Shown: positions 1 to 39,443 of the stretch, in pieces
How the letters are laid out: each line of letters starts with the position of its first letter
Numbering within the stretch: position 1 is the first letter of the stretch
Assembly: GCF_003781945.1 (NCBI RefSeq)
Contig: NZ_RJJW01000002.1
Location: forward strand, 251,476 to 315,475
From: Halorubrum sp. CSM-61
GTDB taxonomy: Archaea > Halobacteriota > Halobacteria > Halobacteriales > Haloferacaceae
Length of the DNA: 64,000 bases
Reading direction: 5' to 3'
Notes under the pieces: model-generated
Told to the model about the DNA's origin: nothing
The model's input: the letters and a program-made list of their open reading frames with translations, nothing else
The model's database searches: none
Made by a program: the position numbers and the translations under genes

Positions 1-140
1 TTATAGCCGAGCGACTGGGGCTTTGGAGGTGTTCACCGTCGATCCGCCGCCAACCGTTTATAGCCGAGCGACTGGGGCTTTGGAGGTGTTCACCGTCACT
101 CTACGATCAACGATTTATAAGCGACCGGCGACGCCGACCA
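1..140 (+). repeat. Tandem 57-bp tail repeats (2.4 units) of the dispersed element
   Basis: Positions 1-40 recur identically at 58-97, and a third, diverged unit starts with TTATAA at 115, so the period is 57 bp. Each unit starts with TTATA(G/A), followed by a CTGGGGCTTTGGAGG block and GTTCACCGTC. The block equals the 3' end of the four full-length dispersed elements elsewhere in the window, but no element body is visible here. The array may continue to the left of the window. It lies downstream of polD2. Confidence 0.85.
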
Positions 141-9226: not shown

Positions 9227-9570
9227 ATTTAAAACGAGAGCGGTGGCGCGCGCCTCCGAGCGCCCGCAGGGCGCGAGGAGCGCGTGCGAGGGAGTCAGTC
9301 GTCCGGAGCGACGCGGAGGGCGACTGACGAGGTTGGGGAGGTGAGAGGTGCGGTTGCGGTGCGGGGCGGGGTGGGACTCAAAGGGGCAGTCGCGAGGGCG
9401 AAGCACGGCGCAGTAAGCACTGCAAGGAGCGAGCAACGCGAGCGACTGAAGCGCGCAACAAGTCGCGCGAGCCGTCGCGGCTGGGGATTTGGAGGTGTTT
9501 ACCGTCGATCCGCTGTCAACCACTTATAAACGAGCAGCTGGGGCTTTGGAGGTGTTTACCGACAAAATGG
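9227..9570 (+). repeat. Dispersed structured element, copy 2 (candidate ncRNA)
   Basis: The copy starts with the TATA-like ATTTAAAA at 9227, followed by GGTGGCGCG. A GC-rich 5' hairpin covers about 9246-9288. A perfect-to-wobble 11-bp hairpin lies at 9294-9328 (GTCAGTCGTCC / GGGCGACTGAC). The hallmark block GGGACTCAAAGGGGC is at 9373-9387. A long-range stem pairs CAGTCGCGA (9387-9395) with TCGCGGCTG (9475-9483), enclosing a purine-rich domain. The 3' block CTGGGGATTTGGAGGTG starts at 9481, and a tail unit with its own TTATAA begins at 9524, 43 bp downstream. It occupies most of the intergenic space between copA and the TRASH regulator; no protein is encoded here. Confidence 0.75.
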
Positions 9571-18514: not shown

Positions 18515-18999
18515 TTTATAAACAGACACGCGGTGGCGTGCGCCTGCGAGCGCCCGGAGGGCGGGAGCAGACCGCGCGAGGGAGTCGGTGGTCCGGAGCA
18601 ACGCGGAGGACCACCGACGAGGCTGGGGAGGCCTGAGGCTGCGGTCCCGCGAGCGACCGACGGAAGCGAGCGGGAGCACGGAAGCCGCAGCGCCGAGCGC
18701 AGCGAGGCGACCGTCTTCCGGCGGTCGCTGTGCGGGTGGGACTCAAAGGGGCAGTCGCGAGGGCGAAGCACGACGACGTAAGTACCGCAAGGAGCGAGCG
18801 GAGCGAGCGACTGAGGAACGTGGTTCGAAACGGCGGAGCCGTTTCGTCATCGCCAGAAATCGGAGATTTCTGGCTAGCAGTCAGAACGCTTCGCGTTCTG
18901 ACGACATCACGAAAGGCGCTCCGCGCCTTTCGAACGACAACGAGTCGCGCGAGTCCTCGCGGCTGGGGATTTGGAGGTCTTCGCCGCCGATCCGCTACT
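18515..18999 (+). repeat. Dispersed structured element, copy 3 (candidate ncRNA) with expanded hairpin arm
   Basis: Starts with TTTATAA at 18515, then GGTGGCGTG at 18532. A perfect 11-bp hairpin covers 18584-18618 (GTCGGTGGTCC / GGACCACCGAC), at the place of the 9294-9328 hairpin of copy 2 but with different paired bases. The hallmark ACTCAAAGGGGC block is at 18741-18752. The long stem pairs 18752-18764 with 18953-18965 (13 bp with two GU pairs). Between its arms are four consecutive perfect hairpins (18826-18932) that the other copies lack. The 3' block CTGGGGATTTGGAGG starts at 18963. A mobile cassette then interrupts its tail. No protein gene is supported between 18263 and 19072. Confidence 0.75.
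18826..18932 (+). repeat. Array of four perfect hairpins with 3-nt loops
   Basis: The four hairpins are 18826-18846 (9-bp stem, loop GGA), 18852-18874 (10-bp stem, loop GGA), 18880-18902 (10-bp stem, loop TTC) and 18910-18932 (10-bp stem, loop TCC). Spacers are 5, 5 and 7 nt. All stems are perfectly complementary and all four differ in sequence. They lie in the apical part of the long stem of element copy 3. Confidence 0.9.
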
Positions 19000-19007
19000 G
19001 GTTATTT

Positions 19008-19438
19008 GACTGTGTTGAAACTCTCTTCATCAGACATAACATCGTCTGGAACAGCTGGTCGCTGAAGAATGCTTAGTTACCGCGTCGTTCTTCCTCGACT
19101 TTTTCTGCTTGTTTATTTATTTTGGCGAGTTCGCGGACTTGCTGGCTGTCCGACCCGCCGTGACCGATTCGGACGGACAAGTCCAACGGTGACGGAACAA
19201 AGCGATCTTCGTCTTCCTCCTCACCTCGTTGATTACCGGATTCCTCGTTGGATTTCTCACCTCCTCTGAATAAGTCGAGGAACACCTCCCAAACACTGAG
19301 GGCCATATGTGCCACCTATGAGTTATTGGAAAATAAGTGTTCACACGGTTCCATCAGTAGCGCCAAATAATCGATGTCTCACCTGTCTTGACCGCAACCG
19401 GGTCAGATTGAGTCACCAGTTGAGGATTTCAACAAGCC
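19008..19438. mobile_element. 431-bp non-autonomous cassette with 8-bp target duplication
   Basis: The cassette is flanked by direct repeats GGTTATTT at 19000-19007 and 19439-19446. Its ends are GACTGTGTTGAAACTC (left) and, reading inward from the right, GGCTTGTTGAAATCCTC. Both match the ends of the 598-bp cassette at 38464-39061, including a subterminal hairpin in the left end (CAGAC ... GTCTG) and a TGACC ... GGTCA hairpin in the right end. No transposase is present. An 8-bp duplication and passenger-bearing cassettes fit the IS1595 family; that assignment is from general knowledge, not a search. It interrupts a tail unit of element copy 3. Confidence 0.85.
19073..19306 (-). CDS. Small passenger protein in the 431-bp cassette, hypothetical
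   Basis: A 77-aa reading frame (MALSVWEVFLDLFRGGEKSN at the start), entirely inside the mobile cassette. Its N-terminus is amphipathic, the middle very acidic, and the C-terminus charged and probably helical (VRELAKINKQAEKVEEE). A TTATTTT box about 27 bp upstream (about 19331-19338) suggests a leaderless transcript. A GTG three codons earlier (19315) is an alternative start. I recognise no family; it may be non-functional. Confidence 0.4.
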   Translation of the reverse strand: MALSVWEVFLDLFRGGEKSNEESGNQRGEEEDEDRFVPSPLDLSVRIGHGGSDSQQVRELAKINKQAEKVEEERRGN

Positions 19439-19502
19439 GGTTATTTATAAGCGAGCGGCTGGGGCTTTGGAGGTCTTCACCACAGCGTCACCGATTTATA
19501 AA
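19439..19502 (+). repeat. Tail unit of element copy 3, displaced by the cassette
   Basis: TTTATAAGCGAGCGGCTGGGG with CTTTGGAGGTCTTCACC, ending near a further TTTATAA at 19495-19501. CTGGGG starts at 19459. Subtracting the 431-bp cassette plus one 8-bp target copy places it 57 bp after the CTGGGG at 18963, the same period as in the other arrays. Confidence 0.8.
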
Positions 19503-25734: not shown

Positions 25735-25806
25735 CCGTCGAATCCGTTTCTTCGGAGATACTCTCGTCCGAAACAGCCGGTCGCCAAAGCGTACTTTTGA
25801 CCGATA
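25735..25806 (+). mobile_element. Decayed end of the cassette family
   Basis: GTCGAATCCGTTTCTTCGGA, then a hairpin (CGGA ... TCCG), AAACAGCCGGTCG and TTTTGACC align with the inward sequence of the 39061 end of the 598-bp cassette and the 19008 end of the 431-bp cassette. No matching opposite end or target duplication was found, so this is probably a remnant. It lies between the thiD stop and element copy 5. Confidence 0.5.
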
Positions 25807-25876
25807 GCGGGAGTAGGTATTGCACGTTAGTTGATCGAGGTTTTATACGTGATCGGGTGACGTTGCTAGCGGCTGT

Positions 25877-26164
25877 TTATAAGCGAACTGCGATGCTACG
25901 GTGGAGGCTTCCAAAGCCCCAGCCGTGAGGGCGGCGCACGCTTGCTGCGCTCCTCAGTCGCTCGTTTCACTCGCTCCCTGTGGTGCTTACGTCGCCTGCG
26001 CCGCCCTCACGGCTGCCCCTTTGAGTCCCGCCCCGCACAGCAACGCGCCTCACACCTCCCCAGCCTCGTCGCTGGCGGCTGTCGCCGCCAGCGACTCCCT
26101 CGCGCGTGCTGCTCGGCCGCGAGGCGGCCTCGCAGGCACGCGCCACTGCGTTGTAGCTTTAAAA
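25877..26164 (-). repeat. Dispersed structured element, copy 5 (candidate ncRNA), minus strand
   Basis: Read on the minus strand, the copy starts with TTTTAAAG (26164-26157) followed by AGTGGCGCG. A 12-bp perfect hairpin lies at 26095-26068 (GTCGCTGGCGGC, loop GACA). The GGGACTCAAAGGGGC block follows, then a 19-bp perfect stem between 26015-25997 and 25938-25920. It ends with CTGGGGCTTTGG and a diverged tail whose TTATAA is at 25882-25877. The stem bases differ from those of the copy at 39082-39443 at several positions, always on both strands. No protein gene is supported between 25710 and 26288. Confidence 0.8.
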
Positions 26165-26170
26165 GCGATC

Positions 26171-26219
26171 ATCGGCGTCACTCACGGTTGCTTTTAAATA
26201 TTGAAGCGCGGACGCCGAT
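26171..26219. repeat. 9-bp inverted repeat upstream of element copy 5
   Basis: ATCGGCGTC at 26171-26179 and GACGCCGAT at 26211-26219 form a perfect inverted repeat around an AT-rich centre (CTTTTAAATATTG). It lies just upstream of the copy-5 TATA-like box and just downstream of the small membrane protein gene. Role unknown. Confidence 0.45.
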
Positions 26220-26288
26220 CTGCAATACTCACTCCCGCTATCACTCATCGGCTGACGGTTTCAGCGGGACCGCTCACCGAGTCCGAAC

Positions 26289-38463: not shown

Positions 38464-39061
38464 GGCTCTGTTGGAATCCTTAGAAAGTAACACATTCTGA
38501 CCGAGGTGTGGTCAGTACAGGGGCCCCAGGAATCGCTCAATAAAGAACGATAGCAGACCGATCTGTACGAGTTATCCGGGCAGTCAGTCAGCGCCTTCTG
38601 ACTCCTCGGTAGTCGTCTGTCTAACTGGGAATATCTCCGTGTCGGGTTCGTCAAACGGACTGTCAGGTCCGGTGAGCCATGCGGAGAGGTAGACGACACA
38701 GGCGGCGACGACAGCCGGCAGCAGTTGGACCGTGAAGACGCCGTAGACAACCGTGACAGCGATCGTAGCGCGAGTGAGTGTGTGGCGTTCTGCGCCGCCG
38801 TAATACACCAGCACGGCGACGACGAGCGCTGAAAGCAGGAACCCTGCTCCGATTAGAGCTCGGGCCATGACTATCCAATACGCAAGTCCACAGACGCCAA
38901 TCAGCACCAGCGCCGCGACGATATAATTACGCTTCAGGGAGGGCATGGTGATCCCGTTTCATCCGAACATATTAAATTACAGTTATTAGTCACGAAGCAG
39001 TTCTCATCGACCGGCTGTTTCAGACAATAATATGTCTGAAGAATAGGAGTTCAACAGAGCC
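38464..39061. mobile_element. 598-bp transposase-free insertion cassette with passenger gene
   Basis: Terminal inverted repeats are GGCTCTGTTGGAATCCTT on the left and, inward from the right, GGCTCTGTTGAACTCCTA (15 of 18 identical). They are flanked by the perfect 8-bp duplication GGTTTTTG. Subterminal hairpins occur at both ends (CTGACC ... GGTCAG left, TCAGACA ... TGTCTGA right). The base composition is less GC-rich than its neighbourhood. The only reading frame is a small membrane protein; no transposase is present. The structure fits a mobile insertion cassette moved in trans, most likely by an IS1595-family transposase (8-bp duplications); the family is inferred. Confidence 0.88.
38584..38946 (-). 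CDS. Passenger membrane protein of the 598-bp cassette
   Basis: A 120-aa protein with about four hydrophobic segments (YIVAALVLIGVCGLAYWIVM, ALIGAGFLLSALVVAVLVYY, ATIAVTVVYGVFTVQLL, AVVAACVVYLSAWLTG) and a polar C-terminus. It is wholly inside the mobile cassette, and its codons are less GC-rich than those of surrounding genes. A TTTAATA box about 27 bp before the ATG suggests a leaderless transcript from a promoter carried by the cassette. No family recognised; it is not a transposase. Confidence 0.7.
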   Translation of the reverse strand: MPSLKRNYIVAALVLIGVCGLAYWIVMARALIGAGFLLSALVVAVLVYYGGAERHTLTRATIAVTVVYGVFTVQLLPAVVAACVVYLSAWLTGPDSPFDEPDTEIFPVRQTTTEESEGAD

Positions 39062-39081: not shown

Positions 39082-39443
39082 TGTCGCGGAGGCCATCGCC
39101 AAAGATCCAGCCGCTCGCTTATAAGCCGTTGACTGCGGATCGACAGTGAACACCTCCAAAGCCCCAGCCGCGAGGAGGGCGCATGCTCGCTGCGCTCCTC
39201 ACTCGGTCGCTCACGTTGTTCGCTCCCTCGTTGCGGTGCTTACATCGCCTGCGCCCTCCTCGCGGCTGCCCCTTTGAGTCCCGCCCCGCACAGCGACCGC
39301 AGCCTCACGCCTCCCCAGCCTCGTCGCTCGCTCGGGGCTCCCTCCGGTCGCCCACGTCACTCGCGACTCCCTCGCGCGTGCTCCTTGCGGCCGCCTTCGG
39401 CGGCCACTCGGAGGCACGCGCCACCGCACATCTTCTTATAAAT
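39082..39443 (-). repeat. Dispersed structured element, copy 6 (candidate ncRNA), minus strand
   Basis: Read on the minus strand, the copy starts with ATTTATAAG (39443-39435), then GCGGTGGCGCG. A 5' hairpin has GGCCGCC / GGCGGCC arms. A second stem domain lies between GTCGC and GCGAC (39366-39323). The GGGACTCAAAGGGGCAG block follows, then a 19-bp perfect stem between 39268-39250 and 39183-39165 enclosing about 66 nt. It ends with CTGGGGCTTTGGAGG and GTTCACTGTCGATCCGC. A tail unit with TTATAA is 43 bp downstream (39124), and a diverged CTGGAT is 57 bp downstream. It sits between the 598-bp cassette and argF; no protein gene is supported between 38947 and 39475. Confidence 0.8.

Follow-up and report, generated by a model that had tools for sequence, protein, structure and literature searches.

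A class Halobacteria-wide family of structured, dispersed and partly mobile elements, putatively transcribed as non-coding RNA

Four folded elements found in a 64-kb window of a Halorubrum genome (the window being the whole stretch of DNA analysed) belong to a large family whose existence is confirmed and for which no description was found in the libraries and papers searched. Its helices stay paired although their sequences vary almost without constraint, and the forward strand is the one that has been selected to fold. With moderate confidence, we favour the reading that this is a class Halobacteria-wide family of structured, dispersed and partly mobile elements, in which the forward strand most likely gives rise to a non-coding RNA of about 250-400 nt; transcription and a biochemical role are inferred from sequence. 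An earlier sequence-only reading had proposed a dispersed folded family and a candidate new haloarchaeal ncRNA, and this proposal was supported, with the reservations that there are no transcript data and that folded single-stranded DNA (ssDNA) is not excluded.

The element consists of a 5' domain (two hairpins and the GAGGYTGGGGAGG joint) followed by a 3' domain. The sequence-only reading had listed four copies with coordinates, strands and an order of parts, all of which held on sequence inspection (Table 1). The joint occurs exactly four times in the window against 0.15 expected by chance, and a covariance model of the 3' domain recovered the same four, with E values from 1.8e-27 to 3.3e-12. 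Two copies had been said to possess a perfect long stem of 19 bp, and those at 39082 and 25877 do; the copies at 9227 and 18515 have another type of stem, which a tandem GA/GA step interrupts, and in copy 18515 extra hairpins are additionally inserted in the long-stem arm. The covarying helices also held, with overwhelming cross-genome covariation, as did the pairing of CTC-AAAG with CTTT-G-GAG around a GGG/GGG internal loop, to which a genus-level compensatory swap can be added.

Table 1. Parts of the four element copies, by position in the window.
Feature	Position	Strand	Basis
Copy 1, whole element with two tandem 3' tail units	9227-9570	+	sequence
Copy 1, hairpin 2	9294-9328	+	sequence; allele comparison
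Copy 1, 3' domain	9373-9495	+	covariance model, E 3.8e-26
Copy 2, whole element; 3' domain enlarged by inserted hairpins	18515-18999	+	sequence; model
Copy 2, hairpin 2	18584-18618	+	sequence; allele comparison
Copy 2, 3' domain with extra hairpins	18738-18977	+	sequence
Copy 3, whole element, class bearing terminal inverted repeats	25877-26164	-	sequence; model
Copy 3, hairpin 2, near-perfect palindrome	26068-26095	-	sequence; allele comparison
Copy 3, 3' domain	25908-26029	-	covariance model, E 1.8e-27
Copy 3, left terminal inverted repeat GCGGGAGTGAGTATTGCAGATC	26217-26238	-	genome-wide repeat count
Copy 3, right terminal inverted repeat (ACTCCCGCTATCGG)	25802-25815	-	sequence
Copy 4, whole element (5' domain, 3' domain, 3' tail unit)	39082-39443	-	sequence; covariance model
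Copy 4, TATA-like box TATTTATAA	39436-39444	-	sequence; kept in orthologous leaders
Copy 4, hairpin 1	39374-39421	-	sequence; folding
Copy 4, hairpin 2	39323-39367	-	sequence; stem differs wholesale between copies
Copy 4, conserved GAGGCTGGGGAGG after hairpin 2	39310-39322	-	motif count in window
Copy 4, G-tract 1 of proposed quadruplex (GGG before GGGACT)	39284-39286	-	GGG conservation
Copy 4, 3' domain GGGACTCAAAGGGGCAG ... CTGGGGCTTTGGAGG	39153-39282	-	covariance model, E 1.7e-25
Copy 4, stem 3 5' arm CAGCCGCGAGGAGGGCGCA	39250-39268	-	sequence; folding
Copy 4, stem 3 3' arm TGCGCCCTCCTCGCGGCTG	39165-39183	-	sequence; folding
Copy 4, second TATA-like box, in 3' tail unit	39119-39125	-	sequence

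The 3' tail unit is present in tandem repeats in many copies. Two tandem units at the left edge of the window (15-28 and 72-85, +) belong to a fifth copy lying just beyond it, at G000:C23:251154-251276, where the window itself spans G000:C23:251476-315475. A solitary tail motif, CTGGGGCTTTGGAG, was found at 19459-19472 (+), about 480 bp past copy 2, with the rest of the element missing.

A family of four proved to be too small an estimate. Covariance model matches gave at least 150 copies in the 3.7-Mb Halorubrum genome, a lower bound that equals the number of candidates scored by the model, and the 17-mer GGGACTCAAAGGGGCAG occurs there exactly 134 times and not once when read backwards. The exact core motif was placed by name in Halorubrum species and is carried by further genomes of the same genus. 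A distribution restricted to Halorubrum was ruled out, as other genera carry a G variant of the core. Written as GGGACTSAAAGGGGC, the core was matched in 250 of the 391 genomes of Halobacteria searched, from 61 of 86 genera, and a reversed-core control gave two matches in total across the Halobacteria genomes. Outside the class, only 2 of 242 genomes of the wider phylum contained the core, with a single match each, which is the chance level. Copy number per genome varied from 1 to about 150, and plasmid matches were obtained in Haloarcula marismortui, Har. hispanica, Natrinema, Halobaculum, Halobacterium sp. DL1, Halorhabdus and others. Neither the viral contig collection, searched for the exact Halorubrum motif, nor a similarity search for the element in phages gave a match, so there is no sign of a viral origin. 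The earlier statement that this is no named RNA held: Rfam 15 gave no match in the window at the strict gathering threshold, a permissive search of copy 4 gave nothing convincing (best E 0.69, unrelated), and no match was found among 20 loci from several genera. Nothing on this folded element family was found in the literature searched, the core motif string included.

Across the 117 Halorubrum copies examined for pairing, 86-96 nt, mostly 90-92 nt, separate the core from the closing CTGGGG. Each of the stem 3 positions 0-9 is paired in 85-100% of these copies, the majority of positions in at least 97%; a single position shows as many as four pair types, and mutual information reaches 1.17 bits. 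An alignment of 33 sequences (A1) contained 50 double-change cells versus 11 in shuffles, and none of 500 shuffles reached any of five measures. RNAalifold, run without a supplied structure, paired the middle that the sequence-only reading had called a purine-rich domain into two-base-pair steps separated by GA/GA, and these steps show compensatory changes (for example, CG 17, GC 10 and UA 5 at column pair 59-72); this domain is not unstructured, and its helix alternates between Watson-Crick doublets and tandem G.A. The cross-genus alignment A2 (42 distinct rows) showed 192 double changes versus 66 in shuffles and a covariation score of 0.517 versus 0.140 shuffled, and sliding the structure by 1-3 columns gave at most 0.088. 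Fitting A2 to the model biases it towards the structure; A1, made without such fitting, agrees with it. The criterion for a structured RNA, that compensatory changes across independent sequences exceed those of shuffled and slid controls, was met.

The clearest compensatory change lies in the core. The core helix reads ACTC-AAAG / CTTT-G in Halorubrum and ACTG-AAAG / CTTT-C in the other genera, a clean C-G to G-C swap that has been fixed between them. This helix (S-AAAG/CTTT-S) and stem 3 flank an internal loop in which GGG faces GGG, with GGGYGGG just ahead. Four G-tracts of three or more are conserved (GGGYGGG, AAAGGGGC and GGGGCTTT). The first GGG, which lay outside the search seed, is kept in about 97% of 187 Halorubrum copies and in 30 of 37 others, while its neighbours vary; the fourth is nearly invariant, with the caveat that the search which located this tract used a relaxed form of it. 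We infer from sequence that the four tracts may form a three-layer G-quadruplex between two duplexes, a structural proposal for which there are no data on K+-dependent folding.

Tandem GA/GA steps point to the strand that folds. Among distinct sequences, 32 stem-3 arms and 35 hairpin-2 stems retain them, and in the other genera at least one tandem GA is present in 113 of 118 distinct hairpins versus 11 of 118 after shuffling. The TC/TC tandems expected on the opposite strand are absent from the other-genus hairpins (0 cases). That tandem G.A is kept and T.C never is indicates that one strand has been selected to fold, and points to the forward strand. Two further signs point the same way, the excess of G.U over A.C in stem 3 (66 versus 16, or 38 versus 13 without the outermost pair) and the position of the conserved G-tracts on the forward strand. 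Hairpin 2 shows no such excess (6 G.U versus 13 A.C). Folding energies were favourable on both strands and thus cannot choose between them.

These steps also bear on the possibility that the family is functionless foldback or MITE DNA, in which stems are perfected by template-switch palindrome correction and gene conversion and the covariation merely reflects the mechanism of mutation. Perfect palindromic hairpins common to unrelated loci and species, the subset with terminal inverted repeats (TIRs) and the tandem duplications of the 3' tail speak for it. However, correction would erase mismatches, yet GA/GA tandems are kept and TC/TC tandems never, the arm length is held at 90-92 nt in most copies, and neither the conserved unpaired G-tracts nor the genus-level C-G/G-C swap is explained. 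We regard this alternative as unlikely; palindrome correction alone was rejected, since the G.A tandems are retained.

Whether the folded strand is RNA or DNA is less settled. GNA triloops close 70 of 118 distinct other-genus hairpins versus 5 of 118 shuffled ones, whereas GNRA was seen twice and UUCG not at all. Loops of the d(GCGAAGC) type are exceptionally stable in DNA, and RNA favours GNRA and UUCG. The triloops are the main argument for DNA over RNA; no open-access paper on stable DNA hairpin loops that would support it was found in the literature searched, and the GNA loop may do no more than continue the G.A stacking of the arms.

In several genera, two cores were observed head to head, about 45-47 bp apart, with the ends CCAGAAAGCCCC...GGGGCTTTCTGG and a partly palindromic spacer (loci L241, L254 and L258 and genomes G154, G097, G063 and G396). 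This arrangement is not typical of Halorubrum, and no TATA-like box was seen in the spacers read from head-to-head copies of other genera.

A folded ssDNA remains a serious alternative. The element would then be a non-autonomous mobile element like REP/BIME or the ends of IS200/IS605, its forward strand folding when single-stranded (on the lagging strand, in transfer or in transposition) and being recognised by an HUH-type or other ssDNA-binding enzyme. In favour of this are the dominance of GNA triloops with GNRA and UUCG nearly absent, the likeness of the head-to-head pairs to BIMEs, a polymorphic insertion seen in both orientations at one site (site 3, below) and the variable copy number. 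Against it, ssDNA gives no role to the TATA-like box kept in orthologous leaders or to a promoter-like block in Haloarcula, the element exceeds a REP by far in size and complexity, a partner enzyme was not identified, and ancient orthologous copies remain paired, though a mobile copy need not stay so after insertion. With REP/BIME sequences the family shares intergenic location, high copy number, palindromic and covarying stems, a bias to convergent gaps, and the occurrence of both single copies and head-to-head inverted pairs. It differs in having 120-400 nt and two domains as opposed to 20-40 nt, in not meeting the GTAG-type tetranucleotide criterion (its conserved strings are others), and in its proposed quadruplex core and a TATA-like box at a fixed distance.

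This box, together with a relative in Haloarcula, provides good sequence hints for the reading that we favour, transcription into RNA. The fixed spacing claimed for the box in the sequence-only reading held, with a box in 90 of 150 Halorubrum copies versus 4 of 150 in a control stretch. In most of these 90 copies it lies at -13 to -16 of GCGGTGG; the remaining 40% of copies have no recognisable box. The gap between box and GCGGTGG is only about 8-9 nt, so with a normal start about 20-25 nt downstream the 5' end of a transcript would lie within the first (5') arm of helix 1. At site 4 the element starts 52-55 bp past a gene that we take, from reading its sequence, to be ornithine carbamoyltransferase-like, with constant orientation in twelve species, and in these orthologous leaders the box is kept while the remaining leader is saturated.

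Haloarcula contains a related unit of about 400 bp that places a strongly conserved block, CGTTTC...GAATAGTATATAAA, ahead and the same 3' module at its end, with a different apical arm (TCAGCGACCCCTATCC...GGATATGTCGCTGA). It was located in Haloarcula marismortui pNG500 (L261:3001-3446) and Har. hispanica pHH126 (L262:2501-2917), in both of which it is divergent from a SOSS/RPA-like gene, and also at loci L246, L252 and L260. It has no Rfam match and is unannotated in the two plasmid records, except that a small hypothetical ORF overlaps it on the opposite strand in pHH126. The promoter-like block is the best hint that the 3' module may work as RNA, an inference from sequence for which there are no expression data.

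Gene context was counted with heuristic gene calls. The earlier statement that all copies are intergenic largely held: they lie in gaps between called ORFs, with few exceptions genome-wide (7 tested copies fall inside a heuristic ORF call). Among 137 copies with both flanks called, 49 were in convergent, 72 in tandem and 16 in divergent gaps, as compared to 163, 424 and 165 of 752 background gaps, so that convergent gaps are over-represented (36% versus 22%) and divergent gaps under-represented. The tandem-gap copies were 38 codirectional and 34 antidirectional, and this balance speaks against a leader or terminator that serves one particular gene; a leader or riboswitch was rejected on these grounds. 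A transcript-end element, acting on adjacent genes as a terminator or 3'-UTR stabiliser in the way proposed for REPs, gains support from the convergent excess. The balanced orientation, the absence of a T-run directly past the fold in the copies read and the separate TATA-like box preceding the element make this alternative improbable.

The elements were both inherited and moved. At site 1, where copy 1 lies, every one of the 16 genomes that make up one clade (coding identity 80-91%) has the element, in full or in part and in the same orientation, and the more distant genomes examined all lack it; 127 of 130 stem pairs form in the ten orthologs with a 3' domain, though the stems differ between species. 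For copy 4, 11 other species retain an ortholog, either complete or in part decayed, at the corresponding position and in the same orientation. Some orthologous copies have been deleted or have decayed, so a single copy is dispensable. At site 3 our genome carries a copy with TIRs, several relatives lack it and three carry an element in the opposite orientation; presence, absence and both orientations were thus seen, with flanks too diverged to read a target-site duplication. It follows from the polymorphic, TIR-bearing site 3 and the vertically kept site 1 that some members of the family move as non-autonomous DNA units and others are old and passed on by descent.

The left TIR occurs exactly 23 times in the genome, 22 times beside this element. 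Like MITEs, the TIR-bearing subset forms units of about 450 bp with polymorphic insertion; in contrast to them, most Halorubrum copies lack TIRs, an autonomous parent transposon with ends of this TIR class (class A) was sought in the genome and not found, and a covarying RNA-like fold is not a MITE property. No known MITE or IS, which the sequence-only reading had named as a possible refutation, explains the whole structure. A short sequence, TGTTGAAA...CAGACA...TGTCTGAAACAGC..GGTCG, was observed directly 3' of copies 4 and 2 (39003-39060, -, and 19010-19069, +); related pieces flank many TIR-class copies, and it resembles the end of another mobile element.

The nearest known kinds are transposon-associated structured RNAs and REP/BIME, and the element fits neither. 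Like HEARO/omegaRNA, the family is a multi-copy, large, covarying and dispersed structured RNA candidate with copies both with and without a mobile unit; it differs in lacking an Rfam match (no transposon-associated RNA model reached its gathering score), in having no nuclease gene seen beside the window copies, and in its GGG/GGG core, G.A helices and vertical inheritance at ancient sites. We considered a solo omegaRNA, the scaffold of a guide RNA for a TnpB/IscB-like nuclease that has spread without the nuclease gene. Such guide RNAs are known beside IS200/IS605 elements in archaea (PMC12558985), and a multi-copy structured RNA with a conserved 3' end would agree with this. The lack of an Rfam match, transposon-associated RNA families included, and the partial conservation of the Halorubrum sequence past the conserved end (GTTCACCGTCGATCCG), which is not guide-like, make it very unlikely. 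Haloarchaeal intergenic sRNAs, for example those catalogued for the single species Haloferax volcanii (PMC3956466, PMC4983044), share the intergenic location and possibly a promoter; no class-wide structured family of up to 150 copies was found described in the haloarchaeal sRNA literature searched.

In the RNA reading, the element would be transcribed from its own promoter, and the putative G-quadruplex between two helices would be very stable in the molar K+ of haloarchaeal cells. The rigid fold would be the working feature, predicted to be bound by protein as an RNP scaffold (the protein partner is inferred), and selection would act only on shape and core, not on sequence. Copies would have spread as non-autonomous DNA units (the TIR-bounded subset) and then been inherited, their helices being renewed by compensatory mutation and, probably, gene conversion between copies. 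A bolder version, which we hold to be less likely than not, is a new ncRNA class confined to haloarchaea, with a quadruplex locked between two duplexes, arms of Watson-Crick doublets and tandem G.A, up to 150 promoter-driven copies per genome, and conservation of shape but not sequence. If the RNA reading is true, a well-studied archaeal class carries a large structured RNA family missing from the RNA libraries searched, at copy numbers normally seen only for transposons. It would offer thousands of natural variants of one fold, suited to the study of tandem G.A helices and quadruplex-duplex junctions at molar potassium, and would make the retention of a dispersed element for its shape alone testable. 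If the folded form is ssDNA instead, it would be an unusually elaborate folded mobile DNA.

In hairpin 2 the stem has a wholly different sequence from copy to copy. Some hairpins are perfect palindromes, common to unrelated loci and species, and the sharing of hairpin alleles between several loci suggests gene conversion as a possibility, inferred only from these shared alleles. At loci L009, L024, L028, L146 and L154, hairpin 2 has an unchanged core with a central GGCGCTTATAAGCGCC, and several compensated base differences lie in its outer part; these variants hint at step-wise or template-driven renewal of the stem. Separately, the arm of copy 2 (window 18830-18945, +) contains several short perfect inserted hairpins, such as GAAAGGCGCTCCGCGCCTTTC and CAGAACGCTTCGCGTTCTG, and similar hairpins recur elsewhere within copies of other species and genera.
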